Shown here: in pieces, positions 26,412 to 61,217 of the stretch
How the letters are laid out: each line of letters begins with the position of its first letter
Position numbering within the stretch: position 1 is the first letter of the stretch
Source of the DNA: Croceivirga sp.
GTDB taxonomy: Bacteria > Bacteroidota > Bacteroidia > Flavobacteriales > Flavobacteriaceae
DNA length: 64,000 nucleotides
Direction: 5' to 3'
Assembly (NCBI GenBank): GCA_028284935.1
Contig: JANQQQ010000027.1
Span: 1 to 64,000, forward strand
Translations under genes and position numbers: made by a program
Notes under the pieces: model-generated
The model's input: the letters and a program-made list of their open reading frames with translations, nothing else
Told to the model about the DNA's origin: nothing
The model's database searches: none

Positions 26412-26481
26412 AATGTCTAAATTCACTTTTTACTACCTCTCAACAATTACATGGCACAATATTTTTTAAAAGAACACACCT

Positions 26482-26493
26482 TTAATCGATTAA
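26482..26493. promoter_or_regulatory. 12-bp palindrome upstream of the NTPase operon
   Basis: TTAATCGATTAA is a perfect palindrome ending 19 bases before the NTPase start codon. Its place between a likely promoter and the start fits an operator, but no binding protein is known. Confidence 0.4.
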
Positions 26494-26512
26494 TAAAAAT
26501 TGACCAACATAG

Positions 26513-28777
26513 ATGACCTTAAATCTTGAGAATCAGCTGCAAGAATTAAAAAATAATAAAAGTTCAATAGACGATTTTTTTACCTCTACCCCATATGATC
26601 AAGACCTAAATTCAGATGGATTTCTTACAAAAGAACTTTTTGGAAAAAAACTAAGAAGTGATGAAGGGTTTCATAAACCCATGAAAATACTTACCAACGC
26701 AATTTTTTCTTATCAAAAGGGGAAAAAAATAATTTTACTCAATGGTTTTTCGGGTACAGGCAAGACAACTTTCATACACTACTATTCCGAACGCAATGAA
26801 GACTTTCATCACATCTTTATAGATTTCGAAGAAATTGATGAAAATTTACGTTTTAAGGACGGTGTTAACACTGAAGATATTTATAAAAGCAGTGGAGAAC
26901 ATTTATTAAAGCTTTTTAAGGGTTATTTATTACAAAATGGATTCTTAAATCCTGAGATTTTTGAAAAAACCTACGAAACATTTTTTTTTATTTTGAATAA
27001 TAAAGAGAGGTTTTCAAAATTTGGATTGATATCCCGTCAATTTTATCTAGACCTTAGCTCTTTAGAACCAGACTCCATATCTAACCAAACGGTAATTGAG
27101 TTTATAAATAAGTTCAATTACAATGATATTTTTATTTTCTTCTTTACTCTCTGCTTTAAATTTTACTCTGTCAAGGAAAAGGTGATAATATATTTTGACA
27201 ACCTAGATAAAGTGGATTTAGAGTATTTAACCGATACTTTTCTGGAAAACTTTCAATCCGCAATTTCTAAAGCGAATATTTTGTCTCAATCAAGTCTTTT
27301 TAAAGAGGATAAAATTAAGTTCAATCAACGATTCAGATTCATTTTTTGCCTCAGGGATGCTAATGGAATCCTATTTAATCAGCATATTGCTGATAGAGTC
27401 AAAATGAAAATTAAAGTTATACCTGTTTTTTTAGGTTTTAACCAGAAACACTTTGAAAAAATTATATCCAAACGACTTGAGGTTCTGAAAGAAATTTATG
27501 ACCTAAAAGACCTTGGAGATCATGAAAATTATTCGGGTAAGCATTTTTTGGGAAATCTTAATACTTTAATAAGTGACGATTATTTCAAGAAAGTTTTTAT
27601 TCCTTTATTCAATAATGATTATAGAAATTCCGTACTTGCTTTATTAGATGCAGTTAGAAATATTTCAAGCAATGACAATTTTTTCTACAAGGATGAACGA
27701 CTAGAATTTGGAGCTAGGGGTTACTTGCTTTTTGAATTGATTCAAAAATTTTTTAAGGAAAACTTTATTTCAGATTACCCATTTCTGACAGGAAAAATTG
27801 ATGGTTTACCAAATGGCCATTATTGTTTCATAGACAGAATGATTATCACGGTCTTGTGCCATAACACAAGATATACTGTAAAAAACATAGGGCAAGAAAC
27901 CGGTAGAAGCTGCAAGTTTTATAGTCAATTAATTAAGGAACTAGAAGTACTATACAATTATGATTACGAGTTAATTTTAGATTCAATAAGTAGGCTATTT
28001 ACCTATCATGAATCCGAAAATTGGGTCCATTTGATTAGCATTCTAAATAAAAAAATTAGGTCAGCAGATGATTTCAGAGAAGAAAAAGAACTGTTAAATG
28101 AGTTGAAATCTCTTAAAGAAATTTCTGAAAACAGAAACGAACATCGGATAAAACAAATAATTGACAGCCTTGATAGAATTAGAATTAAGCTGAATCCATC
28201 TGCTTATATTTATGTTAAATATATTCTACCACACTTTGAGTTTTATTCTAATCTTTCGAATAACGAACAAGCGCTTTATCAAAACTTCTACGTCAAAGAA
28301 AATTTGCATAGTTACAAATACGAGTTAATCCTTAAAAGTGTTTTTGAACATATTTCGAGACATAAAAATAGAATGGAATTGTTCTATGAATATCAAATGC
28401 AAAATGTTATATCAAAATCTAATTTTTACAATTCACAATACTGTTTCAAACTTATAGGAGAAGGAGATACCCCTTTAAAGGGGTATTTTCATTTGACCAG
28501 GATAATCACATCACATATAGATTATTTGGACAGGTTTAGGAGAAAAATGTTAGTATTTAATCAAGACAAACCCTTGTTTGACAAATTAAAATTCAACGAA
28601 ATTCTTGTAAAACAAATTGAGAAATATATCCTCCTTTTGGAAAATAGTATTGACATAAGAGCAAAGAAACATTTGGTCCCAAGCTTAAGAGAAAAAGCAA
28701 ATGACATTATATCCAGCAAATACAGGGATTTTAAAATCCAAATAAGACTTCCCAAAGAGCACAACCTAAGAAAATAA
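26513..28777 (+). CDS. large P-loop NTPase of unknown family (candidate defence ATPase)
   Basis: A 754-aa cytoplasmic protein. Walker A is GFSGTGKTT at residues 78-86, Walker B is VIIYFDNLDKV near 226-236, and RFIFCLRDAN near 274-283 may be a sensor-like arginine strand. This DNLDKV form is typical of STAND, KAP or ORC-like AAA ATPases. The remaining 450 residues are helical and carry no domain I recognise; SAYIYVKYILPHFEFYSNL near 563-581 is the most distinctive stretch. It is much more AT-rich than its neighbours. It is followed 5 bases later by a small membrane protein gene, so the two form an operon. Large NTPases paired with a membrane-tethered small protein often act in phage defence, but this assignment is inference. 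Confidence 0.72.
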   Translation: MTLNLENQLQELKNNKSSIDDFFTSTPYDQDLNSDGFLTKELFGKKLRSDEGFHKPMKILTNAIFSYQKGKKIILLNGFSGTGKTTFIHYYSERNEDFHHIFIDFEEIDENLRFKDGVNTEDIYKSSGEHLLKLFKGYLLQNGFLNPEIFEKTYETFFFILNNKERFSKFGLISRQFYLDLSSLEPDSISNQTVIEFINKFNYNDIFIFFFTLCFKFYSVKEKVIIYFDNLDKVDLEYLTDTFLENFQSAISKANILSQSSLFKEDKIKFNQRFRFIFCLRDANGILFNQHIADRVKMKIKVIPVFLGFNQKHFEKIISKRLEVLKEIYDLKDLGDHENYSGKHFLGNLNTLISDDYFKKVFIPLFNNDYRNSVLALLDAVRNISSNDNFFYKDERLEFGARGYLLFELIQKFFKENFISDYPFLTGKIDGLPNGHYCFIDRMIITVLCHNTRYTVKNIGQETGRSCKFYSQLIKELEVLYNYDYELILDSISRLFTYHESENWVHLISILNKKIRSADDFREEKELLNELKSLKEISENRNEHRIKQIIDSLDRIRIKLNPSAYIYVKYILPHFEFYSNLSNNEQALYQNFYVKENLHSYKYELILKSVFEHISRHKNRMELFYEYQMQNVISKSNFYNSQYCFKLIGEGDTPLKGYFHLTRIITSHIDYLDRFRRKMLVFNQDKPLFDKLKFNEILVKQIEKYILLLENSIDIRAKKHLVPSLREKANDIISSKYRDFKIQIRLPKEHNLRK

Positions 28778-28782
28778 TTAGT

Positions 28783-29256
28783 TTGAATTTCGAATCAATA
28801 CTTGACAAAATTTATGTCGGCCCTAAAAGCAGACAGATTAGGAAAGAAGTAATTGATGCATATTTCAATTATGTCAAGCCGATATTTAAATCCTTTAGAC
28901 ATTCTGAATTATCCTTAGCAAATTCAGATATTATTATGTTAAATAGAAAGCTAGAATCAAATCAATGCTCTTTTCTTGAAGTACATATTAAATCAACAAA
29001 GCTCAAAAGGGAACTATCAAAAGAAGAATTTTCCCATATCAAATCCCTATTCAATCAAAAGAACTTGAATGAAGATCAAAAAACTATTATCAGGACAATT
29101 TTTTTAAGCAAACTCGATTACATACAAGAATCATGTTTGATACTGGAAATTTTAATTAAGCAGAATAAGAAAAAAACTTTGTTATGGTTAATCGGAGTCA
29201 TCATTGGGAATGCAGGATTGATTTCCTTATTGTTAAGATTTTTTAATTGTCCATAA
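28783..29256 (+). CDS. small protein with a C-terminal membrane helix, partner of the NTPase
   Basis: A 157-aa protein starting at TTG 28783 (MNFESILDKIYVG); the next in-frame ATG is about 50 codons later, so TTG is the likely start. The first 130 residues are charged and helical. One hydrophobic helix, TLLWLIGVIIGNAGLISLLL, follows at the C-terminus and would leave the bulk in the cytoplasm as a tail-anchored protein. No family is recognised. It lies 5 bases after the NTPase gene and shares its AT-rich composition. A membrane-acting effector controlled by the NTPase is plausible but unproven. Confidence 0.65.
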   Translation: MNFESILDKIYVGPKSRQIRKEVIDAYFNYVKPIFKSFRHSELSLANSDIIMLNRKLESNQCSFLEVHIKSTKLKRELSKEEFSHIKSLFNQKNLNEDQKTIIRTIFLSKLDYIQESCLILEILIKQNKKKTLLWLIGVIIGNAGLISLLLRFFNCP

Positions 29257-29549
29257 CAATGAGAAGATAGTTTTAAAATTATCAGCAGTACAAAAAATTA
29301 AATTCTGAATGTTTTAACTGCATTACCCTCTCATTAGTAACACTCGAACAATTATACCCATGAAATTTTGCCCATAAAATTACTGATTAATGTAAATCTT
29401 AAAGAGTGCACACATTTCATTAAGAAAAGTGTCATCTACAATGGTGTCTTTTAATATTAAGATAACAACAGGTTGTTAACTTAGTGTAATATTTATAGCT
29501 ACTGGATAAACACATCCCGGACCTTAACAACTATTAAATTCGACGCTTT
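29257..29549. other. 293-base intergenic region without a gene
   Basis: No reading frame with coding character on either strand. It holds one 16-bp interrupted palindrome at 29463-29478, listed separately, and otherwise AT-rich sequence leading to the PhoX gene. I see no repeat linking this edge to the left edge of the NTPase insert. Confidence 0.6.
29463..29478. promoter_or_regulatory. interrupted palindrome upstream of the PhoX gene
   Basis: TAACAAC and GTTGTTA form a perfect 7-bp inverted repeat with a 2-base spacer, 71 bases upstream of the phosphatase ATG. It could be an operator for a dimeric regulator; a phosphate-responsive one would make sense but nothing shows this. Confidence 0.35.
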
Positions 29550-31250
29550 ATGGAAAGTCCCAAAAAAACATATAATCGAAAAGAGTTTATTTCCTTTTTA
29601 GGGAAAGCCGGTCTAGGCGCGGCGATAGTTCCTCCCTTTTTAGTACGCTGCGGCAATACCAGCACACCAACTGCAACAGGCGGTACATCCAATGAGCAAC
29701 TTGAAAAGCTAAAGAACCTTGCGTTGGAGGGATTACCAGCTTCAGACAAGGATGATTTACTTTTAAGCAAAGGGTTGGATTATCACACGGTGATCAAATG
29801 GAATGATAAAATCAGTACCCAAGATACATTTGGGTTCAATTGTGATTTTACCTGCTTTATTCCCCTTGATGACAATAACCCAAAAGACGGTTTGTTATGG
29901 GTAAACCACGAATACATCGACCCGCTTTTTGTTTCCGGTTATGATCCAAATATCCCGGAACTATCAAGAACTATGGAGCAGGTCGATAAAGAAATGTATA
30001 ATGTTGGCGGGAGCATCGTAAGAATTCGTCAAGAAAATAACATATGGCGAATAGTACACAATGACCCGCACAACATAAGAATTACGGCAAAGACACCAAT
30101 AGAATTGAATTGGGATACCCCTATTAAAGGAAAAACTACGGTCATCGGATCTCTTGCCAATTGTTCTGGAGGAATTACGCCATGGAACACCTTTTTAACC
30201 TGCGAAGAGAATTATGATGGCTTCTATGGAGAGACCCTATATGATGAAAACGACCAAACCACCCATAAGCCAAGCAGGTATTATGGATGGGAAAACTTTT
30301 ATGATTACCCTCCTGAGCATTATGGTTGGGTGGTTGAAGTGGATCCAAAAGATGGAACTGCACAAAAGCACATTGCGTTGGGAAGGTTCTCCCATGAATG
30401 CTGCACACTATATCAATTGAATGATGGTCGGGTAGTTGCCTATACCGGTGATGATAAAAACGATGAACACCTCTATAAATTCGTTTCTTCCCAACCAAAT
30501 TCCTTAAAGGAAGGAACCCTTTATGTGGCGGATACGGTAAATGGTAAATGGTTGGCCATGGACTGGGAGAATCAAGCGGTGTTAAAAAACAAATTTAAAG
30601 ACCAGACCGAGGTCCTTATTCGAGCAAGGGAGGCTGCAAAATTATTGGGAGCCACGGAACTGAATCGACCTGAAGATATCGAAATCGACCCCATTACCGG
30701 CAACATTTTTGTATCACTCACCAACAATAAGGGTAAGGGAGATAATCACGGTTCCATTTTAAAGATTGAAGAAGCCAATGGTGCGTTTGATGCTCTAGAT
30801 TTTGAAGCGTCCACCTATATTGCCGGAGGGGAAGAAAATGGCTTTTCCTGTCCTGATAATCTAGCCTTTGATATGTCTGGCAACCTTTGGATGACCAGTG
30901 ATATGTCAGGAAGTGCCATGAACAGACCTGATGGTCCTTATATGGCATTCAAGAACAATAGTTTATTTGTGATACCACGATATGGTAAGGATGCAGGAAA
31001 AGTTATACGTGTAGCTTCGGCACCTAGGGATGCCGAGCTCACGGGGCCTTGGTTTTCGCCAGATGGGAAAACCTTGTTTTTAAGCGTTCAACACCCAGGT
31101 GAACAGACAACAGATCTGAGCAATCCAACAAGTCTTTGGCCCTTTGATGAAGATCGCATTCCAAAACCTTCGGTGGTTGCCATTACCGGCGATTTAATAG
31201 AAAAAATGAACAAGCTAAGTCAAATTGAGACAGAGGGTTCAAAAAGTTAA
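29550..31250 (+). CDS. PhoX-family (DUF839) alkaline phosphatase-like protein
   Basis: A 566-aa exported protein. The family signature is clear: NCSGGITPWNTFLTCEEN near residues 203-220 and LGRFSHECC near 277. PhoX enzymes are Ca/Fe-dependent phosphatases releasing phosphate from organic esters, common in marine bacteria. The N-terminus NRKEFISFLGKAGLG resembles a Tat signal with RK in place of RR, and VRCGN at about 33-37 looks like a lipobox, so it may be a Tat-exported lipoprotein. A second phosphatase gene follows 137 bases later. Confidence 0.9.
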   Translation: MESPKKTYNRKEFISFLGKAGLGAAIVPPFLVRCGNTSTPTATGGTSNEQLEKLKNLALEGLPASDKDDLLLSKGLDYHTVIKWNDKISTQDTFGFNCDFTCFIPLDDNNPKDGLLWVNHEYIDPLFVSGYDPNIPELSRTMEQVDKEMYNVGGSIVRIRQENNIWRIVHNDPHNIRITAKTPIELNWDTPIKGKTTVIGSLANCSGGITPWNTFLTCEENYDGFYGETLYDENDQTTHKPSRYYGWENFYDYPPEHYGWVVEVDPKDGTAQKHIALGRFSHECCTLYQLNDGRVVAYTGDDKNDEHLYKFVSSQPNSLKEGTLYVADTVNGKWLAMDWENQAVLKNKFKDQTEVLIRAREAAKLLGATELNRPEDIEIDPITGNIFVSLTNNKGKGDNHGSILKIEEANGAFDALDFEASTYIAGGEENGFSCPDNLAFDMSGNLWMTSDMSGSAMNRPDGPYMAFKNNSLFVIPRYGKDAGKVIRVASAPRDAELTGPWFSPDGKTLFLSVQHPGEQTTDLSNPTSLWPFDEDRIPKPSVVAITGDLIEKMNKLSQIETEGSKS

Positions 31251-31387
31251 GTTCATTAATACCGTTGCTGGCAAAGCCTCAATGGATGGATTTCCTTTAT
31301 AAATATTTAATGTGTTAATAATACCAATAAGGGATTTAGGAGTCTTTTTAATTCATAATTTGCCAGTTAAATTGACCAATAAAAAGA

Positions 31388-32737
31388 ATGAGAACACATA
31401 AGTATTACAAAGTAACCTTACTTTTAGTTGTAGGTTTCCTAGCGGTAGGCTTGAGGGCCCAACATCAGCATCATGATGACCATGAAGGACTGCACCATTG
31501 GGAAATTCCCAGTAAGGATCCGGATCGGGTCATTCTTACGTTTCATGGAGATCCGGCAACCAGTAGAGCAGTAACGTGGCGTACCGATAAGAGCATTACG
31601 GATGCTGTGGCCCAAATTGCCGAAGCCACTGTAAATTCAGGATTTACGGATAACGCCACTACGGTAAATGCGGTCACTGAACCATTTGACCTAGGCCGGT
31701 ACAAGTCCAATGCTTCCCTGGTGGTCCATTACCATAATGCCCTATTTGAAGGGTTGAAGCCCAATACGCTTTACGCCTACCGTGTAGGGGATGGTGATAC
31801 CTATTGGTCGGAATGGATTCAGTTTCGAACCGCTAAACCCGATTACTCCCCTACTCAATTTGTATATTTTGGTGATGCACAGAACGATGTACTTGCCCAT
31901 TGGTCACGAGTCATCCGAATGGCCTATCAAACGGCTCCCAATTCATCCTTCGTAATACATGCCGGTGATTTAATAAATAATGCCCATCAAGATTATGAAT
32001 GGGCACAATGGTACAAGGCCGGGGGCTTTATACATAGCCAATGGACTGCGATACCAGTAGTAGGAAACCATGAGTTCAGACCACTCACTGAAGGAGAGGG
32101 AAGGAAACTTTCCATCCAGTGGAAACCACAGTTCACACTACCCGTTGAAAAAGACTTGCCACCAGAACTGCATGAAACCGTCTACACGGTGGATTACCAG
32201 GATATTCGGATTATCGTCCTTAATTCCAATGATAAGTTGGAAGAGCAAACGGAATATGTCGAGAAACAACTTGAAAACTCCACGGCCAAATGGCATATTC
32301 TTACCTGCCACCATTCCATTTTCTCCCCCGCTAGGGGTAGGGATTTTCAATTTGCACGTGAAAATTGGAAGCCGCTTTTGGACAAATACAATGTTGATTT
32401 GGTGCTTAATGGACACGATCACACCTATGCAAGAGGCCATGTTCCCATGCGAACAGCGGATACTGCAAGTGATGATGGTCTAGGGACAGTTTATGTAACC
32501 TCCGTAAGTGGACCAAAACAGTACAGTTTGGATAGGGAGCAACTCAAATCCTATTCCGCCAATGGCTACCAACCCGACAAGACTGCTGAACAGACCCAAT
32601 TCTTTCAGGTTATTACCGTAGAGGAAAACAAACTTACTTATGTGGCCTATACCACACTAGGAGAAGAATATGACCGGGCAGTAATTACCAAAGACTTTGA
32701 AACCGGTAAGAAAGAACTTTCGCAAATCGAAGAGTAG
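31388..32737 (+). CDS. purple-acid-phosphatase-like metallophosphoesterase
   Basis: A 449-aa secreted protein with a signal peptide ending near GLRAQ and a histidine-rich mature start (HQHHDDHEG). Residues about 40-150 form an N-terminal fibronectin-like domain (VILTFHGDPATSRAVTWRT). The catalytic domain has the dinuclear metal motifs YFGDAQND, HAGDLINN, VVGNHEF, CHHSIF and NGHDHTYAR. This domain order is that of purple acid phosphatases. It sits after PhoX, so both may serve organic phosphate use. Confidence 0.9.
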   Translation: MRTHKYYKVTLLLVVGFLAVGLRAQHQHHDDHEGLHHWEIPSKDPDRVILTFHGDPATSRAVTWRTDKSITDAVAQIAEATVNSGFTDNATTVNAVTEPFDLGRYKSNASLVVHYHNALFEGLKPNTLYAYRVGDGDTYWSEWIQFRTAKPDYSPTQFVYFGDAQNDVLAHWSRVIRMAYQTAPNSSFVIHAGDLINNAHQDYEWAQWYKAGGFIHSQWTAIPVVGNHEFRPLTEGEGRKLSIQWKPQFTLPVEKDLPPELHETVYTVDYQDIRIIVLNSNDKLEEQTEYVEKQLENSTAKWHILTCHHSIFSPARGRDFQFARENWKPLLDKYNVDLVLNGHDHTYARGHVPMRTADTASDDGLGTVYVTSVSGPKQYSLDREQLKSYSANGYQPDKTAEQTQFFQVITVEENKLTYVAYTTLGEEYDRAVITKDFETGKKELSQIEE

Positions 32738-54897: not shown

Positions 54898-55689
54898 ATG
54901 GAATTAAAAATGTATCAAATCGATGCCTTTACGGATAGATTGTTTGGAGGAAATCCTGCCGCGGTTTGTCCCTTAAATGAATGGCTAGAACCTACCTTGA
55001 TGCAAAAAATAGCTGAGGAAAACAATCTTGCTGAAACCGCTTTTTTTGTCAAAAATGGAGATAGCTATGAAATACGATGGTTTATGCCCCATGATGAGAT
55101 TGATTTATGTGGGCATGCAACCTTAGCTTCCGCATTTGTCATTTTCAACTACTTGGAACCTAATCTAAAAACAATCTACTTTACATCACAAAGTGGGCCT
55201 TTAGAGGCACAGGTGGAAAATGGGAGAATAGTTCTTGATTTTCCATCCCGTCCGCCAAGGATGGTTGATATCCCCGAAGAAGTTCATGCTTCATTTAACC
55301 ACAAACCCATTGCTGCTGGGGCGAGTAGGGATTTATTGTTGCTGTTTGAAAGCGAGAACGAAATCAAAACGTTGGAGTATGATTTAAGTCCTCTAAAGGA
55401 TTTACCTTATTTGGGAATCATTGCCACCGCAAAAGGCAATGAAGTTGATTTCGTATCCCGCGTATTTGACGCCAATGCCACCATGCCCGAAGACCCTGTC
55501 ACCGGTTCATCCCATTGCACGCTTGCACCTTTTTGGAGCAAAAAACTCAACAAAACGACACTGAGCGCAAAGCAATTGTCCGCACGTCATGGGGATTTGA
55601 TCTGTACCTTGAAAAAGGATAGGGTCTATTTGGCAGGAAATGCTGTGCTTTATTCCAAGGGGACAATCTATTTAGATAGGTTTGCATAG
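54898..55689 (+). CDS. PhzF-family isomerase
   Basis: A 263-aa protein with the PhzF/diaminopimelate-epimerase-like fold. The first motif is QIDAFTDRLFGGNPAAVCPL; NNLAETAFF holds the conserved acidic residue; DLCGHATLAS, then DPVTGSSHCTLAPFW follow in the second half. In phenazine producers PhzF isomerises a DHHA intermediate; no phenazine genes are present, so the substrate here is unknown. Confidence 0.92.
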   Translation: MELKMYQIDAFTDRLFGGNPAAVCPLNEWLEPTLMQKIAEENNLAETAFFVKNGDSYEIRWFMPHDEIDLCGHATLASAFVIFNYLEPNLKTIYFTSQSGPLEAQVENGRIVLDFPSRPPRMVDIPEEVHASFNHKPIAAGASRDLLLLFESENEIKTLEYDLSPLKDLPYLGIIATAKGNEVDFVSRVFDANATMPEDPVTGSSHCTLAPFWSKKLNKTTLSAKQLSARHGDLICTLKKDRVYLAGNAVLYSKGTIYLDRFA

Positions 55690-55732
55690 GCTGATGACGT
55701 TTCAGAACCTGTTCGAATTAAGGAGAAAAACC

Positions 55733-55764
55733 GCGAAACCCCCTGAATTATAAGGGGGTTTCGC
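55733..55764 (+). terminator. hairpin after the phzF-like gene
   Basis: A perfect 12-bp stem, GCGAAACCCCCT and AGGGGGTTTCGC, with an 8-base loop, 44 bases after the stop. The T-tract is weak (CGTTATTTG), but the stem is very stable. It marks the left edge of the putative island. Confidence 0.75.
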
Positions 55765-55772
55765 CGTTATTT

Positions 55773-55794
55773 GTGGAGTACACTGGCATTGAAC
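55773..55794. repeat. attL-like degenerate copy of the tRNA-Val 3' end
   Basis: GTGGAGTACACTGGCATTGAAC matches the plus-strand tRNA end GTGGAGTATACTGG..GAAC at 18 of 22 positions, in the same orientation. It may be an attachment-site remnant or a chance match. Confidence 0.4.
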
Positions 55795-56034
55795 TTTTTA
55801 TAACTATTTGTTTTCTTTAAATATATTTGGCTTAAATGTTCATTGATTTTCAGATGATTAGTATTTTTATTACTGTTAGATTAGAAGATATAACTAACAT
55901 TAATAAAACTGTCAACTCATTGTCTACAGCTTCCTCAACATTCAATTTAAAGGTACCTAATCAGAAAGTGAAACACTGATACTCTTCTCGTGCTTTTTCA
56001 AGTATGAGGGAAAACCTAAAAACTTATTCAACTG
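55795..56034. other. AT-rich region, no feature seen
   Basis: Together with the terminator and repeat on its left this is the longest gene-free stretch near the island (about 345 bases from the phzF stop). I see no convincing reading frame, promoter consensus or repeat in it. Confidence 0.5.
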
Positions 56035-56200
56035 ATGGAAAAAAGGAAGAAATTACAAATAAAACTCATGGAATCGGGTCTTTTTGAATCTAAAGACATG
56101 TGGGACATTCGTCATTAGAAAGTCTATTCGAGAATCTCGAAAACTAAAGAAAAAGAAACTAAAAAAAGCTACTAATCATTTTTTTACATTTAATGAATGA
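56035..56200 (+). pseudogene. small basic protein gene with a frameshift
   Basis: The frame MEKRKKLQIKLMESGLFES ends at a TAG (56116-56118) after 27 codons. If one T of CATTAG is ignored, it continues as RKSIRESRKLKKKKLKK to a TGA at 56198-56200, giving a 54-residue basic protein with uniform character. The restored stop overlaps the ATG of the membrane protein gene at 56193. A palindrome TTCGAGAATCTCGAA (56127-56141) lies within it. It looks like a recently broken small gene, or a sequencing error; the family is unknown. Confidence 0.45.
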
Positions 56201-56807
56201 AATAAAATTTGTTGAAACCTTTATAATCGAAGAGTACAAAACACTTTGGAACTATTATCAGCGTACACTAACCGAAAGAAAACATCTTTTTGATTGGTAT
56301 CTTAAAATTATTACTCTCCCATCTTCACTACTTGGTTTTCTTATTATCAACAAGTCCAATTCGATTGAACTTCCTCTGGACATTGCAGCTGGGATTTTAA
56401 TGGCAATATTTTTTATAGGCTTTTCCTTGTTCGTAACCTACAGTAAGGAAAGTAGAAATGCCGAAAACTATTTAGAATCAATTAAGAGGATTAGGAATTA
56501 CATCTGTCAGGTCAATCCCAATTTAGCAGATGTCTTAATAATCGAAAAAACAAGAAGGAAGAACTCATATTTTTTTGGTATAGACATCATCAAATTTTTC
56601 AGAAGTCTTGTCTTTGTTATTGTAAATTCTATCGTCCTATCATCATCAATAGAGCTTTTCTACGACAGAAAAAACTGGATTACAATCTCAATATTTTTTG
56701 GAGTTTCCTTATTCGTCCATTCATTAATCTATGTCTTATTACATAGAGATGCGTATTATCACGATTACGTTGAGGTTCAAGCAGAGAAAGTCCATGAAGA
56801 AAATTAG
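56193..56807 (+). CDS. four-helix membrane protein of unknown function
   Basis: A 204-aa protein. A charged N-terminus (about 1-35) is followed by two helices (about 36-54 and 62-83), a cytoplasmic loop of about 45 residues (YSKESRNAENYLESIKRIRN), and two more helices (about 132-150 and 160-183). The 2+2 helix layout with a coiled linker is reminiscent of membrane effectors such as SLATT proteins, but I cannot assign a family. It overlaps the broken small gene upstream. Confidence 0.6.
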   Translation: MNEIKFVETFIIEEYKTLWNYYQRTLTERKHLFDWYLKIITLPSSLLGFLIINKSNSIELPLDIAAGILMAIFFIGFSLFVTYSKESRNAENYLESIKRIRNYICQVNPNLADVLIIEKTRRKNSYFFGIDIIKFFRSLVFVIVNSIVLSSSIELFYDRKNWITISIFFGVSLFVHSLIYVLLHRDAYYHDYVEVQAEKVHEEN

Positions 56808-56886
56808 ATAGGGACACTAAGTTGGTGCAATGAGGCATGATGGATATCGATTGCATTCATAAATCAAGGAATAACCTATTTGATTG

Positions 56887-57110
56887 ATGGAAATCTACGA
56901 ATACCTCAGCCTTTCGGAAAACGAACAATTGGAGACACTACGGGATTCCGGTCAATTTATTGCCCATCGTCCTAGCACACACTTTGTGCCATTGACAGGT
57001 TCTTAGTTGAGGTTGAGCTTAGGAAGTCGGACAAAATCATTGGGAAGAAGGTTGTTGAGAAAGGGGAAACCCTTGAAAAATATACATTGGACCTCAATAT
57101 TGAGTTATAA
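56887..57110 (+). pseudogene. frameshifted small conserved flavobacterial protein
   Basis: The frame MEIYEYLSLSENEQLETLRD stops at TAG 57004-57006. Shifted by one base, the sequence goes on as CAIDRFLVEVELRKSD and GKKVVEKGETLEKYTLDL to a TAA at 57108-57110. Together they resemble a small protein type common in Flavobacteriaceae (about 75 aa) that begins MEIYEYL and has FFVEV in the middle. The shift falls at an ACACAC run, where slippage is likely. The total length (224 bases) is not a multiple of three. Confidence 0.65.
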
Positions 57111-57151
57111 GTAATATTTTCGAATTCTATACCTCTTTTAAGTTTTACCAA

Positions 57152-58483
57152 ATGAAGAAATTCAAGCTCCCGTTTATTCTGATTGTTACAGTGACTATTT
57201 CGCTAAGCGCATTTTCTCAATCCAGTTCAAACAAATCATGGGAAATGAACCTTTCGAATTGGGGATATGATAACAATCACAAAGTGAAACTTTTATTTAA
57301 AGAAGCCACTGTTAGATACTATTATAAACCTTCTGGTCTTAGATATAACATTGTTATTATTGCAGTCCATGATATTGGTGATAATGTTCCTTTTTTTGGA
57401 GAACCTGGTACAGAAAGCAATAGAGAAAAATACCTGTATACTCTGAAAGATAGAATCATGGAAATTGTCAATGATTCTTCGGATGATCGTCTAAATTTCA
57501 ACAAAACTATTTATGGCATCAATACAAGACATTATGTAAAAGGGTTCTCAATACCAGAACCGGATGTTACTGATTCCGGAGGATTTGAAGATCCCATCTC
57601 ATCGTACAGCATACAACTAGATCCCCAAGATTTCTATGATGCCACATATGAAATTGAGGCCATTAATAGAATTAATTCAAATCCCTTAACAAACTACAAT
57701 ACCGTTAACGAGGCCAGAGTGGGTAGAATGAAAGAATATTCTACATACTTGGATAAAAAGGAGGAGAAAAAACAAAAAATACTTTCTGAGTTGGCACCAA
57801 GAAACCCTTCAAATATAATCTTGGAACTTGATACATCTCCAAAAGGTAGAAGAAAGGTCTTGGATGAATTGCTGATGGGCAAAAAGACAAGTGATTATGT
57901 TCTAGGTACGTTTAACGCGCTTAGAATTGAATTGGAGAGGGAACGGGCAAGGAAGGAAATGACAATAGGGAATGATCCATTATTTATGAAAGATTATTTC
58001 GAAAGTATTTTCTATGGCCATTTCGATAGGATTAAATCAGACAAAACTAAATTGGTCTTCATATTTAACAATGATAAAGCCAGGGCCTTTAGACAAATGC
58101 ACAATGGTTTTCTTTATTATGCCAGCACTGTTTATTCAAAATACTACAAGAATAATATATTGGATGCATTTACAATTTACCAAACCAAACGGAACAAATA
58201 TTCAGGAGAAGAACGAAGAACAGGAATTGAGACTGATTATGTTATTTGGATACCTAATAAGCTGAATCCAAAATTTCAAGAATATTGGGATAATGACTGG
58301 GAACACCAATTCGGTTCCGACAACGAGAGTTTTTCGCCAGAATTTGAATGGTTGGCATTATCATTCCTCAGCCAACACAATCCGGATAGTTTGGCCTTCA
58401 AACAATTGTTGGAAAACTTATACAGGTACTCAAATGACCTTGACCCTGTTACTTCGAAAAGTAGTTTGATGGATTACAATTAG
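57152..58483 (+). CDS. secreted protein of unknown function (443 aa)
   Basis: The signal peptide MKKFKLPFILIVTVTISLSA is cleaved near AFSQ. The mature protein starts with NKSWEMNLSNWGYDNNHKVK and is rich in Asn, Tyr and Lys, with a helical charged middle (MKEYSTYLDKKEEKKQKIL) and a more globular C-terminus containing DYVIWIPNKLNPKFQEYW. I recognise no domain, repeat or sorting signal. Composition is AT-rich like the rest of the island. Confidence 0.68.
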   Translation: MKKFKLPFILIVTVTISLSAFSQSSSNKSWEMNLSNWGYDNNHKVKLLFKEATVRYYYKPSGLRYNIVIIAVHDIGDNVPFFGEPGTESNREKYLYTLKDRIMEIVNDSSDDRLNFNKTIYGINTRHYVKGFSIPEPDVTDSGGFEDPISSYSIQLDPQDFYDATYEIEAINRINSNPLTNYNTVNEARVGRMKEYSTYLDKKEEKKQKILSELAPRNPSNIILELDTSPKGRRKVLDELLMGKKTSDYVLGTFNALRIELERERARKEMTIGNDPLFMKDYFESIFYGHFDRIKSDKTKLVFIFNNDKARAFRQMHNGFLYYASTVYSKYYKNNILDAFTIYQTKRNKYSGEERRTGIETDYVIWIPNKLNPKFQEYWDNDWEHQFGSDNESFSPEFEWLALSFLSQHNPDSLAFKQLLENLYRYSNDLDPVTSKSSLMDYN

Positions 58484-58589
58484 GTTAAAAACCAACCTCT
58501 TTGTCAACCGTTTGAGGGAAGTCTCTGATTTCAAGTATTATCGTCCCTTACAGCGGAACCAGAAGGTATTGAACCCTGTTTTTTTGAGG

Positions 58590-59585
58590 TTATTTCACCT
58601 TGTACGCCTTCCAGTTTATTCCTGATATATAAAGTGTATCATTGGATTTAGTGAGGAACATATATGTTCCAAATTCAGATATGAAGTTTTTTTCATCGAG
58701 TTGGTATAGTCGAAGTTGCAATTCCCCAAAATCCCCATAAATCGAATCTTGGGTACGCACCAACTGCCAATCCATTATCGGAGAGTTATTTGAATTGGAT
58801 TCCAACATTTTATATGTCCCAAAGTAATTGGAATCAATCTTCTTTTCTGATTTGTTGACCTCAAAACCGGCATCCTCCAGCGTTGACTGTAGTTCCAATA
58901 GTCTGAAGGCAAATTTAACATGCGCCCCTTGAACAAAATTTAGGGCGTCTTTAGTATTGTAAGCAATATTTCTATATTCGGTTTTGGTAAGATAGTTCAC
59001 CAGCAATGTTGAATCTTGTTCATAAGCCCAAGAAATATCGTCCCGGAATGCAATCCTTTTTTTGGCCTCAATACCAGCATTCCTGGCCTCAAAAGACCCA
59101 TCATCGACAGCGTCCAATCCATGTTCGTAGGCATCTTTTAATTTTTCAAAAATGGATTGATACTTTTCAGGGAGTTCCTCGGAATACTGTTTAAGCTTTT
59201 CATATTCATTAAGCTCAAACCCCATCTTTCCCGTTGTAAAGGTAGGTATCCACAGCAACCTATTTAACCTAGGCAAATCATATGTTTTGATTAAACTGTC
59301 ATACCCAAAATTCGCTTGGATGTCCAGGTTTTTTGAATATTCCATATTGCCATAGAAGACTTTATCGCAAATCAAAAGGTTCTCGGTGATCTCATCGGAA
59401 ACCAGATCCATAATATTTTCAACCTTCTCCCTGTTCTTCCTACTTTCATTCCAGTTGTTGAACTGGAGGGCAATTAGTATTCCCAATACGACCAATACAA
59501 TTTCACCAATAGCATAGGTCAGATATTTTGCAACCTTGTAATCCTTTAGAAGTCCCTTCCTGATATTTCTGAAAAACCTTAGCAT
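58590..59585 (-). CDS. DUF6090-family membrane protein
   Basis: A 331-aa protein starting MLRFFRNIRKGLLKDYKVAKY, followed by one helix AIGEIVLVVLGILIALQFNN and WNESRKNREKVE, the diagnostic DUF6090 N-terminus. The remainder is a soluble helical domain. The family is abundant in Flavobacteriaceae and its function is unknown. It is transcribed opposite to its neighbours. Confidence 0.88.
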   Translation of the reverse strand: MLRFFRNIRKGLLKDYKVAKYLTYAIGEIVLVVLGILIALQFNNWNESRKNREKVENIMDLVSDEITENLLICDKVFYGNMEYSKNLDIQANFGYDSLIKTYDLPRLNRLLWIPTFTTGKMGFELNEYEKLKQYSEELPEKYQSIFEKLKDAYEHGLDAVDDGSFEARNAGIEAKKRIAFRDDISWAYEQDSTLLVNYLTKTEYRNIAYNTKDALNFVQGAHVKFAFRLLELQSTLEDAGFEVNKSEKKIDSNYFGTYKMLESNSNNSPIMDWQLVRTQDSIYGDFGELQLRLYQLDEKNFISEFGTYMFLTKSNDTLYISGINWKAYKVK

Positions 59586-59695
59586 AACTAACTATACATT
59601 AGAAAGATAGAAATTAATTGGGTAAGTGAAAATTAATTTATGGACTTTAAAAAACTAATGGTTCAGGTTAAAAAGTGTTTCAGGAACCCATTGAA

Positions 59696-59931
59696 TTCAA
59701 GGCGTAACAGACTTTCCTACAGACCCCATAAGTAGTGAACCAGGGCTATATGCCGTTTCCGTTGTATTAAAAAAAGACAAATTGAATTTTGAAAGACCTA
59801 TTTTAGAAGATGATAAGCTGACTGCTGAAAATGTTAAACGTGAACTGGATAAATTAAACTATTCAAATGATTTCTCTGATGAAGAGTTCTATGGCTATGC
59901 TACATTGGAGAAAATTATAAAAATAGGATAA
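59696..59931 (+). pseudogene. 5'-truncated coding fragment
   Basis: After a TGA at 59693-59695 the frame is open as IQGVTDFPTDPISSEPGLYA and continues VLKKDKLNFERPILEDDKL, ENVKRELDKLNYSNDF to TAA at 59929-59931. It has protein-like character but no ATG; a TTG inside (KDKL) could start a 49-aa protein. It ends 6 bases before the next gene, so it was probably translated with it. Likely the 3' remnant of a larger gene. Confidence 0.45.
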
Positions 59932-59937
59932 CAGAGA

Positions 59938-60246
59938 ATGGAAGAATTTCCTGAAGAATTCGATTTACATGATGTCCTGCTAAACCTTTGGATTCGTCAG
60001 GCAGCTTATCACGATGGTGCCCTAAAAGTGAGTCACAAGGATAGTTACGTGGTTGCGGATAAAGGCAAATATACCTTTTGCGATGAAGGCCATATCAAAA
60101 GGGAGAGGAAACGCCCGGAAGCTATTGAACGAATTTTAAAAGGGCTTATCAAAAAGTATGGTCGGTTGGAGCGAGATGGTTACGAATATTATTTCGACCG
60201 TGATAGGTGGTTAAGGAGAAAGGTTGAATTAGATTTAAGCGATTAA
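59938..60246 (+). CDS. hypothetical acidic-basic small protein (102 aa)
   Basis: A 102-aa soluble protein beginning MEEFPEEFDLHDVLLNLWIR, followed by a VSHKDSYVVADKGKYTFCDEG beta-like stretch and a strongly charged helix RERKRPEAIERILKG. No family is recognised. It follows the truncated fragment by 6 bases, and its end overlaps the end of the convergent Abi-alpha-like gene by 12 bases. Confidence 0.55.
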   Translation: MEEFPEEFDLHDVLLNLWIRQAAYHDGALKVSHKDSYVVADKGKYTFCDEGHIKRERKRPEAIERILKGLIKKYGRLERDGYEYYFDRDRWLRRKVELDLSD

Positions 60247-61032
60247 ATCTTTTATGTCGCCCTCCCTGCAAAGTGTTATGAATTCAAATCCAAATCTGGT
60301 AAGCCTAACCTGTTTGTTTTCATTAGACTCTAGCTTTACATATCGTTCGAAATTCTCCTTTGTTAAAGGAGTATCCTTCCCACCATGATAACTAGTACTT
60401 CGAATGTCAAATTTTAAGTCTTTTTTGTATTCTAGCAAGCCAATGTCAATGAGGTTGTGCAATTCGAATATGGACTTTGGGAGTTGGGCGTTGAAATCAT
60501 GATTAAGAATCCAAACTGAAAAAAAGTATCTTTCAATATATTTATATAAGTCAGAAATCTTTTCTTCCTCCTTAACATTCTTTAAGTAGTTTTCTATTTG
60601 ATGGTTGTTTGCTATTGAATACCTAAAAATAAAATCTAAAACAGTGATATCGCTATTTGTAAGATTACTCAACGCTTCAACCGCTCTCTTTTTTATTACA
60701 TCATTAGAATCTATCGTGACTAGGTTTGATATTAATCTGGCCCACCCGTCTTGTAGATTCGAGTTTTCTTCTAAAGAAATATTGTGTAAAAGAGGTACCA
60801 GTACCTTCAAGTCTAATTTTTTGGCAGTCAAGCCTTTTTTAGAAAGAAACTTTTCGGCTTTTTGAAGAATTTTCACTTGGTTTTTAAATCTTCTCAAGCG
60901 AAAACTATCACCCAAAGTTTCAGCCAATTCCTTCACCGATGGGCCTAAGACGGCCTTAAAAGCTTTTTCACCTTTGTCAAGTAGTTGTTTAGGAATGTTC
61001 AAGCCATCGATTACCTTGCCAATATCGCCCAT
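60235..61032 (-). CDS. Abi-alpha (DUF4393)-like protein
   Basis: A 265-aa protein matching the pattern I know for Abi-alpha/DUF4393: GPSVKELAETLGDSFRLRRF near 30-49, QKAEKFLSKKG, then the central PLLHNISLEENSNLQDGWARLISN near 80-103, which is the most conserved part. The C-terminal half has ELHNLIDIGLLEYK and a winged-helix-like VRLTRFGFEFITLCREG. Members have been linked to abortive infection against phages. It lies directly downstream of tRNA-Val on the same strand, with no promoter consensus visible. Confidence 0.72.
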   Translation of the reverse strand: MGDIGKVIDGLNIPKQLLDKGEKAFKAVLGPSVKELAETLGDSFRLRRFKNQVKILQKAEKFLSKKGLTAKKLDLKVLVPLLHNISLEENSNLQDGWARLISNLVTIDSNDVIKKRAVEALSNLTNSDITVLDFIFRYSIANNHQIENYLKNVKEEEKISDLYKYIERYFFSVWILNHDFNAQLPKSIFELHNLIDIGLLEYKKDLKFDIRSTSYHGGKDTPLTKENFERYVKLESNENKQVRLTRFGFEFITLCREGDIKDLIA

Positions 61033-61141
61033 AATAATTGTTTGCTTTTGATCAGCGTGGGGGTTGAGGCTATTTTTTACTATTCCAAATTGTCAACTAA
61101 ACCTAGAACTACCTATAAACAATGGGGTTAAAAGAAAAATC

Positions 61142-61163
61142 GTGGAGTATACTGGATTCGAAC
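61142..61163. repeat. attR-like repeat at the tRNA-Val 3' end
   Basis: The 22 bases covering the tRNA acceptor 3' strand and T-arm, matched at 18 positions by 55773-55794 in the same orientation. Confidence 0.4.
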
Positions 61164-61217
61164 CAGTGACCTCTGCCCTGTCAAGGCAGCGCTCTAAACC
61201 AACTGAGCTAATACTCC
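61143..61217 (-). tRNA. tRNA-Val (anticodon GAC)
   Basis: The minus strand folds as a full cloverleaf: acceptor GGAGTAT with ATACTCC, D arm AGCTC..GAGC, anticodon stem CTGCC/GGCAG with loop TTGACAG (anticodon GAC), T arm ACTGG TTCGAAT CCAGT. The discriminator base is A and the CCA end is not encoded. It reads valine codons GUC and GUU. Its 3' end is one side of the putative island repeat. Confidence 0.95.

Follow-up and report, generated by a model that had tools for sequence, protein, structure and literature searches.

The stretch of DNA analysed here (the window) comprises positions 1 to 64,000 of contig JANQQQ010000027.1 from Croceivirga sp. (assembly GCA_028284935.1). Flanked by the genes for a GT2 glycosyltransferase and PhoX, it carries two genes on the + strand that form a two-gene unit with a gap of 5 nucleotides (nt). 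The first encodes a large P-loop nucleoside triphosphatase (NTPase), P0001, and the second a small protein with a single C-terminal hydrophobic helix, P0002. An earlier note on this DNA had described a 754-amino-acid (aa) NTPase followed 5 bases later by a 157-aa partner and had put the pair forward as a candidate defence system; both open reading frames (ORFs), the gap, the Walker motifs and the single helix agree with that description. The unit and its edges are laid out as follows.

26412..26512, no strand: 101-nt gap from the GT2 stop to the NTPase start (sequence)
26513..28777, + strand: NTPase gene P0001, 754 aa (ORF list; full-length homologues)
28783..29256, + strand: gene P0002 for a small tail-anchored membrane protein, 157 aa, TTG start (ORF list, hydropathy)
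29179..29235, + strand: C-terminal transmembrane helix of P0002, residues 133-151, preceded by KKK (hydropathy)
29257..29549, no strand: AT-rich gap before phoX (sequence)

The module is of foreign composition. P0001 and P0002 have GC contents of 29.2% and 28.3%, against 40.8-45.4% for eight measured neighbour genes, and 2.7-kb stretches of the window outside the module (step 100) average 41.6% (standard deviation 2.5, minimum 33.6%). The strong AT-richness claimed earlier is thereby borne out, and a count by eye likewise gives 12 G/C in the 60-base line at 26941. The left edge of the module lies within 26412..26512 or in the last codons of the GT2 gene, whose match to congeners ends at residue 277 in nine of ten cases and at residue 284 in one. 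Flanking and attachment repeats were sought around the module, and no convincing pair was found.

The NTPase family is apparently rare and its distribution sporadic. Among 60 genomes (its own, ten congeners, and members of the family and order) P0001 was found in its own genome only and in 0/10 congeners; P0002 was found in one of 90 genomes, again its own. A sample of 395 genomes from the phylum yielded one real homologue besides P0001 itself, in genome G217, and profile searches recovered these two as the only full-length members (1/123, 1/249 and 1/294 genomes, 1/395 once one false row was dropped, and 2/326 after 31 short P-loop matches were excluded). Because the draws overlap and 2-3 candidates were scored per genome (up to 4 in the 249-genome draw), these counts are neither independent nor exhaustive, and misses are possible. 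The 31 exclusions are all of the 33 matching genomes in the 326-genome draw except Croceivirga's own (G000) and G217. For 18 of them (L041-L058), rescoring placed the significant matches inside profile positions 6-195, the P-loop part, on short loci that may cut long frames; matches in the remaining 13 cover fewer than 100 profile positions. Two further candidates were rejected by eye, G329/L003 as an ABC transporter and G958/L036 as a CobW-like GTPase.

A scan of GTDB contigs gave at least three loci, in metagenome-assembled genomes of Ferruginibacter (L037), Prevotellaceae (L038) and Candidatus Kapaibacterium (L039, which is the G217 contig). Since the scan requires an exact seed and its count is a lower bound, more members may exist. 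All three relatives align over nearly the entire length of the NTPase at 26-27% identity to P0001, and lengths within the family are 754-764 aa. With the window proteins as queries, no homologues were found in plasmids, phages, viral contigs or the first scan of genome contigs, and profiles of two, three and four rows found nothing in viral contigs. The G217 protein gave no plasmid match, the L038 and L037 proteins gave only sub-threshold plasmid fragments (expectation value (E) 6e-2 and 8e-2), and the L037 protein had no match in phages.

Alignment of the four NTPases, together with the P0001 structure model, identifies the following features.

26744..26770, + strand: Walker A (P-loop) GFSGTGKTT, residues 78-86; G78, S80, G81, G83, K84, T85 and T86 invariant in 4/4
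26873..27166, + strand: predicted all-helical insertion between the P-loop and Walker B, residues 121-218 (low-confidence model)
27188..27208, + strand: Walker B IYFDNLD, residues 226-232; F228-D232 invariant in 4/4
27353..27364, + strand: candidate sensor-1 region R281-x-x-N284 after strand 274-280 (strand from the model); R281 and N284 invariant
27608..27625, + strand: FN-x-x-YR motif, residues 366-371, with candidate sensor-2 arginine R371; F366, N367, Y370 and R371 invariant
28193..28540, + strand: conserved C-terminal region, residues 561-676; 21 invariant columns in 4/4
28499..28516, + strand: R663-x4-H668 within the C-terminal region, invariant in 4/4

R402-G403 is also invariant across the four aligned NTPases. 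By hydropathy there is no transmembrane helix in P0001 or in the L037 and L038 NTPases, and the L006 NTPase is borderline (1.69). P0001 has nothing above the curated Pfam or NCBIfam cut-offs. Its best weak P-loop match is AAA_22, which reaches 19.9 bits (E 9.4e-4) where the cut-off demands 27, and matches to AAA_16, AAA_22 and nSTAND, mostly from one relative, are weak and below cut-off. Searches of PADLOC at E up to 10 returned no family for P0001 or for the L038 and L039 NTPases and three weak rows for the L037 NTPase (PDC-M16A, Csx3 and TRIP13, RdrA not among them); the PDC-M16A row (E 3.5e-4) is confined to the P-loop and was rejected. PHROGs gave weak matches only, PDB sequence searches only weak P-loop or chance rows, and the viral fold library no match with E below 0.001. 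The structure model of P0001 is poor (predicted local distance difference test score (pLDDT) 49). Used in Foldseek, it placed two chains of the origin recognition complex (ORC) on top and RdrA third and fourth (8hrb, E 9.9e-4; 8hra, E 1.1e-3; probability 0.98-0.99, TM-score 0.18); RdrA is absent among the 50 VIA rows listed for this model in the fold search. ORC-like proteins are the best fold matches of this poor model. We conclude that P0001 is a P-loop NTPase with leads to ORC-, STAND- and KAP-like ATPases, as the earlier note had held. Both Walker motifs are conserved in 4/4, and ORC subunits head the Foldseek list of the poor model. That note's remark that neither protein has a recognised domain beyond the NTPase core also stands, none being found above the Pfam or NCBIfam cut-offs.

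The conserved C-terminal region allows an account in which the NTPase bears its own effector, the chief alternative within the same class of system. The 21 invariant columns span N561 to R676, and T662, R663, T666, H668, D673, R676, H574 and E576 are invariant in 4/4. The motif of HEPN ribonucleases is R-x4-6-H, and R663-x4-H668 could mark a divergent HEPN-like ribonuclease, with the membrane protein as anchor, sensor or antidote. H668 is one of only two invariant histidines in the family alignment (n=4) and stands at HEPN spacing from R663, and the region is predicted to be mostly helical. We nevertheless regard this as quite unlikely: none of five C-terminal fragments hit a Pfam HEPN family up to E 10 (their top row, Glyco_transf_17, is below cut-off), no PDB sequence match to the region falls below E 0.49, the R-x4-H spacing would arise by accident in about 5% of cases by a hand estimate, and this block of the model has a pLDDT of 33-67.

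P0002 has a single hydrophobic helix (Kyte-Doolittle mean 2.33), and the KKK that precedes it suggests a cytosolic N-terminal part. There is no match in Pfam or PADLOC and none above the NCBIfam cut-off; PHROGs returned weak matches to families without assigned function. Structure comparison, which the earlier note had proposed for both proteins, gave ORC and RdrA leads for the NTPase from a poor model; the model of the partner (pLDDT 44) is too poor for a fold search.

A small membrane-protein gene abuts the NTPase gene (-14 to +16 nt) in 4/4 family members found. The partners in the relatives measure 223, 165 and 182 aa, and their genes are set off from the NTPase gene, in the same order, by a gap of 3 nt, an overlap of 14 nt and a gap of 16 nt. 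The window pair prompted the idea of pairing, so the three relatives serve as its test. As a control, 33 ORFs of at least 600 aa in 15 stretches (the window, L006, L007, L026-L035, L037 and L038) were checked for a directly adjoining ORF that is no longer than 230 aa and contains a hydrophobic helix. One was present for 4/4 family members versus 1/29 other large ORFs; the 230-aa limit was chosen after the partners had been seen, and syntenic copies of one gene in several congeners account for many of the 29, so that the control is indicative only. The arrangement suggests more than chance, since three distant homologues keep both the full length and the abutting small membrane-protein gene.

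The partners themselves differ. In the relatives the partner lies upstream of the NTPase and has its hydrophobic stretches in the N-terminal half, whereas in the window it lies downstream and has a C-terminal helix. In their cytosolic parts the upstream partners of the relatives weakly resemble one another (observed score attained in 0, 5 and 12 of 500 shuffles), and the window partner resembles that of Kapaibacterium (3/500) and neither of the other two (283 and 336 of 500). Comparison by hhalign supports no pair of partners (best probability 2.3%). These results indicate that the architecture is conserved and that the window partner is not demonstrably homologous to those of the relatives. 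The earlier question of whether homologues occur as a pair is therefore answered in part: a small membrane-protein gene is present in 4/4, and one conserved partner protein is not supported.

The three relatives lie in different surroundings. At L037 a tyrosine integrase gene is 114 nt upstream of the pair, and genes for ArdC, a serine recombinase and an OLD-type nuclease all lie within 10 kb downstream. The Kapaibacterium pair has a gene for an OLD-type nuclease (AAA_15 and OLD-like TOPRIM) 164 nt upstream and one for a tyrosine integrase about 1.1 kb downstream. The OLD-type genes of these two relatives are 0.2 or 7.3 kb from the pair (PADLOC Old, E 7.4e-64 and 3.5e-65). The neighbours at L038 encode an HU-like protein, a DUF5675 protein and an epimerase, and no defence gene was recognised in these surroundings. 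A 204-aa helix-turn-helix-like protein on the Kapaibacterium contig has a partial PADLOC match to RmrA (E 3.5e-8, 106/397 positions) and was not counted as defence context. Separately, a gene for a 147-aa protein lies 127 nt downstream of the L037 NTPase (L037:12383-12826) and is possibly a third gene of the module; searches with this protein gave no match in Pfam up to E 1 and none in PADLOC up to E 0.01.

In the window, no integrase or relaxase was seen among the ORFs listed at 22-34 kb, and the four neighbours scanned have no PADLOC match. The earlier note had asked whether homologues cluster with known defence genes; a mobile and defence context is seen near two of three relatives, as integrase and OLD-type nuclease, and not beside the window pair. 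Such surroundings bear on an alternative in which the pair is no defence system and instead serves maintenance, replication or transfer of an integrative element, its ATPase being ORC/TniB-like and working on membrane-located DNA. This would suit the ORC-like top fold matches and the two relatives on integrase-bearing stretches, one of them with ArdC and a serine recombinase, but no flanking repeat was found, no integrase or relaxase was seen among the window ORFs listed at 22-34 kb, and the family seems too rare and scattered for an element core. We consider it unlikely.

The congeners show what otherwise occupies the junction. In 10/10 congener stretches, one of which starts inside gcvP, the order is gcvP, FabH-like, methyltransferase-like, GT2 (the first three named by eye, GT2 not). 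MlaE-MlaF follows downstream within the stretch in 8/10, and the space from GT2 to MlaE-MlaF holds one opposite-strand gene, which may encode a PafA-type phosphatase, in six of these eight and additional genes too in two. The stretch of G001 stops at a contig end. In G008 an AT-rich block of 27-37% GC (L030:7208-10004) directly follows GT2 and encodes a CBS-domain protein whose match to HEPN_Swt1 stays below cut-off (23.0 against 27.5), a 293-aa protein at 27% GC and a nucleotidyltransferase/HepT-like (MntA/HepT-type) pair. The varied content after GT2 marks the junction as a site of gene turnover, with one set resembling a toxin-antitoxin pair. The earlier note had proposed to compare related strains for presence or absence. 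Of the three points it had named as speaking against its view (homologues mainly as single genes in a housekeeping context, conservation in close relatives, a clear family match) none was found: 0/10 congeners carry the NTPase and nothing passes the Pfam or NCBIfam cut-offs.

It is also conceivable that the pair has an everyday, strain-specific function in the envelope or under stress, as an ATPase and its membrane adaptor, and lies in a phosphatase and glycosyltransferase region by chance. The neighbouring GT2, PhoX and purple acid phosphatase genes, and the epimerase gene after one relative, would fit, but the foreign composition, the absence from 10/10 congeners and a gene neighbourhood that changes from one of the three relatives to the next make this very unlikely.

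Two other regions of the window were recorded in passing. Positions 29550-32737 hold PhoX and a purple-acid-type phosphatase where 6/8 congeners have the other phosphatase-like gene (by eye); PhoX was matched in 2/11 genus genomes, the other being G008, at 31% over residues 190-520 only. A second AT-rich block (55500-61100, 33-38% GC) lies beside a tRNA-Val gene (61142-61217, - strand). It encodes an Abi_alpha (abortive infection) protein (60235-61032; Pfam E 6.8e-19, PADLOC PDC-S47 1.6e-7), a 204-aa protein that by eye appears membrane-spanning (56193-56807) and a 443-aa protein (57152-58483), the latter two with no Pfam match at E 0.01.

Among known systems, RADAR resembles the window family in several traits. 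It combines the RdrA ATPase, a heptameric AAA+ protein with a helical crown insertion and a C-terminal lobe, with the RdrB deaminase. Both ATPases are large: RdrA chains in the PDB have 851-852 residues, the NTPases of the window family 754-764 aa. For P0001 a poor model predicts an ORC/Cdc6-like core, helices inserted after the P-loop and a helical C-terminal lobe, all of which would have counterparts in RdrA. The Walker residues of E. coli RdrA, K82 and D221 (PMC9994260), lie at positions similar to those of K84 and D229 in P0001. The RdrA proteins of E. coli and S. suis are less than 20% identical (PMC9994260), so sequence alone is a weak test for RdrA. Unlike RADAR, the window unit has two genes only and no RdrB, P0001 has no PADLOC match, the window partner has one C-terminal helix, the partners differ from one family member to another, and the fold match is weak (TM-score 0.18). 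No deaminase was seen in the window unit or in the part of the relatives' neighbours that was scanned, the remaining genome not having been searched for RdrB. With no RdrB in the unit and no sequence match in PADLOC, membership in RADAR was not adopted and the likeness kept as a resemblance. Csx27- and SLATT-type proteins are membrane proteins. Some RADAR loci carry added Csx27- or SLATT-type genes (subtypes rdrABC and rdrABCD; PMC7699616). It appears rather unlikely that the family is a relative of RADAR whose RdrA-like AAA+ ring works through a membrane effector in place of RdrB, the ATPase staying constant and the partner being swapped between lineages.

KAP-family NTPases offer a second comparison. 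PifA is a KAP-family NTPase defence protein. Tmn, likewise a KAP-family NTPase, has two transmembrane domains and is described as inhibiting several phages (PMC11846954). Like these, the window family has a P-loop ATPase with a long stretch inserted between its Walker motifs, and it too is tied to the membrane; it differs in that the window NTPase lacks a transmembrane helix, the membrane part being a separate gene. The Ferruginibacter member alone (1/4) passes the Pfam KAP_NTPase cut-off (25.0 bits against 20), which is itself passed in 9/14 control genomes (PF07693). The nine PF07693 matches that its own genome yields up to E 10 do not include P0001. One frame of that genome that passes is a 1694-aa open frame at L060:628-3528 (G000 C38), by eye a kinase-AAA hybrid, and the cut-off is therefore not specific. 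KAP membership was not adopted, since P0001 does not match PF07693 and contains no membrane helix of its own. STAND/NACHT-type sensor ATPases include Avs. Like these, the window family would combine a large sensor ATPase with a separate output and has weak sub-cut-off AAA_16, AAA_22 and nSTAND matches; unlike in them, Pfam scans recognised neither a sensor made of repeats nor an effector domain at the N-terminus, and the P-loop is near that end. No description of the NTPase-partner pair was found in the literature searched, most subscription journals being outside its coverage, and passages of PMC7159879 hold nothing fitting the pair.

The reading we favour, with confidence evenly poised, is that the two genes were acquired by horizontal transfer and make up a conflict module, in all likelihood directed against phages or mobile elements. 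It is suggested by the 29% GC of the pair, the full-length relatives in three other lineages, the pairing in 4/4, the invariant ATPase motifs, the absence from 10/10 congeners, the variable junction, the integrase and OLD-type nuclease near 2/3 relatives, and the ORC and RdrA matches in Foldseek. What stands of the earlier proposal of a defence system is the foreign two-gene module, its P-loop NTPase and its 4/4 membrane-gene pairing; the defence role itself is inferred, as is that note's division of labour, with the NTPase as sensor and the small protein as the acting part. The module probably represents an apparently undescribed antiviral or anti-mobile-element kind, made up of a sensor ATPase and an exchangeable small membrane partner. 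In such a system, an AAA+/STAND-type ATPase with a predicted ORC-like core, helical insertion and helical C-terminal lobe would serve as ATP-dependent sensor and switch, and infection may be detected through the conserved C-terminal lobe. The helical cytosolic part of the partner would be held at the inner membrane. Upon an infection signal, the ATPase could assemble or change shape on the membrane partner, presumably by oligomerisation and direct contact, and the response at the membrane, be it depolarisation, arrest or recruitment of the ATPase to incoming DNA, would fall to the partner.

If the pair is a defence module, it adds an apparently rare, unrecognised ATPase family, missed by the PADLOC library used, to the sensor-ATPase kind. 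The conserved ATPase, set against a partner that differs in sequence, anchoring end and gene order, offers a comparison that probes the partner's role. In the RADAR structure paper the signal that activates the system is left open (PMC9994260), and if the RdrA link holds, the family bears on what RdrA senses and on whether its output is exchangeable. Were an RdrA-like ring with a membrane effector to prove true, RdrA would be a general phage sensor with interchangeable outputs.
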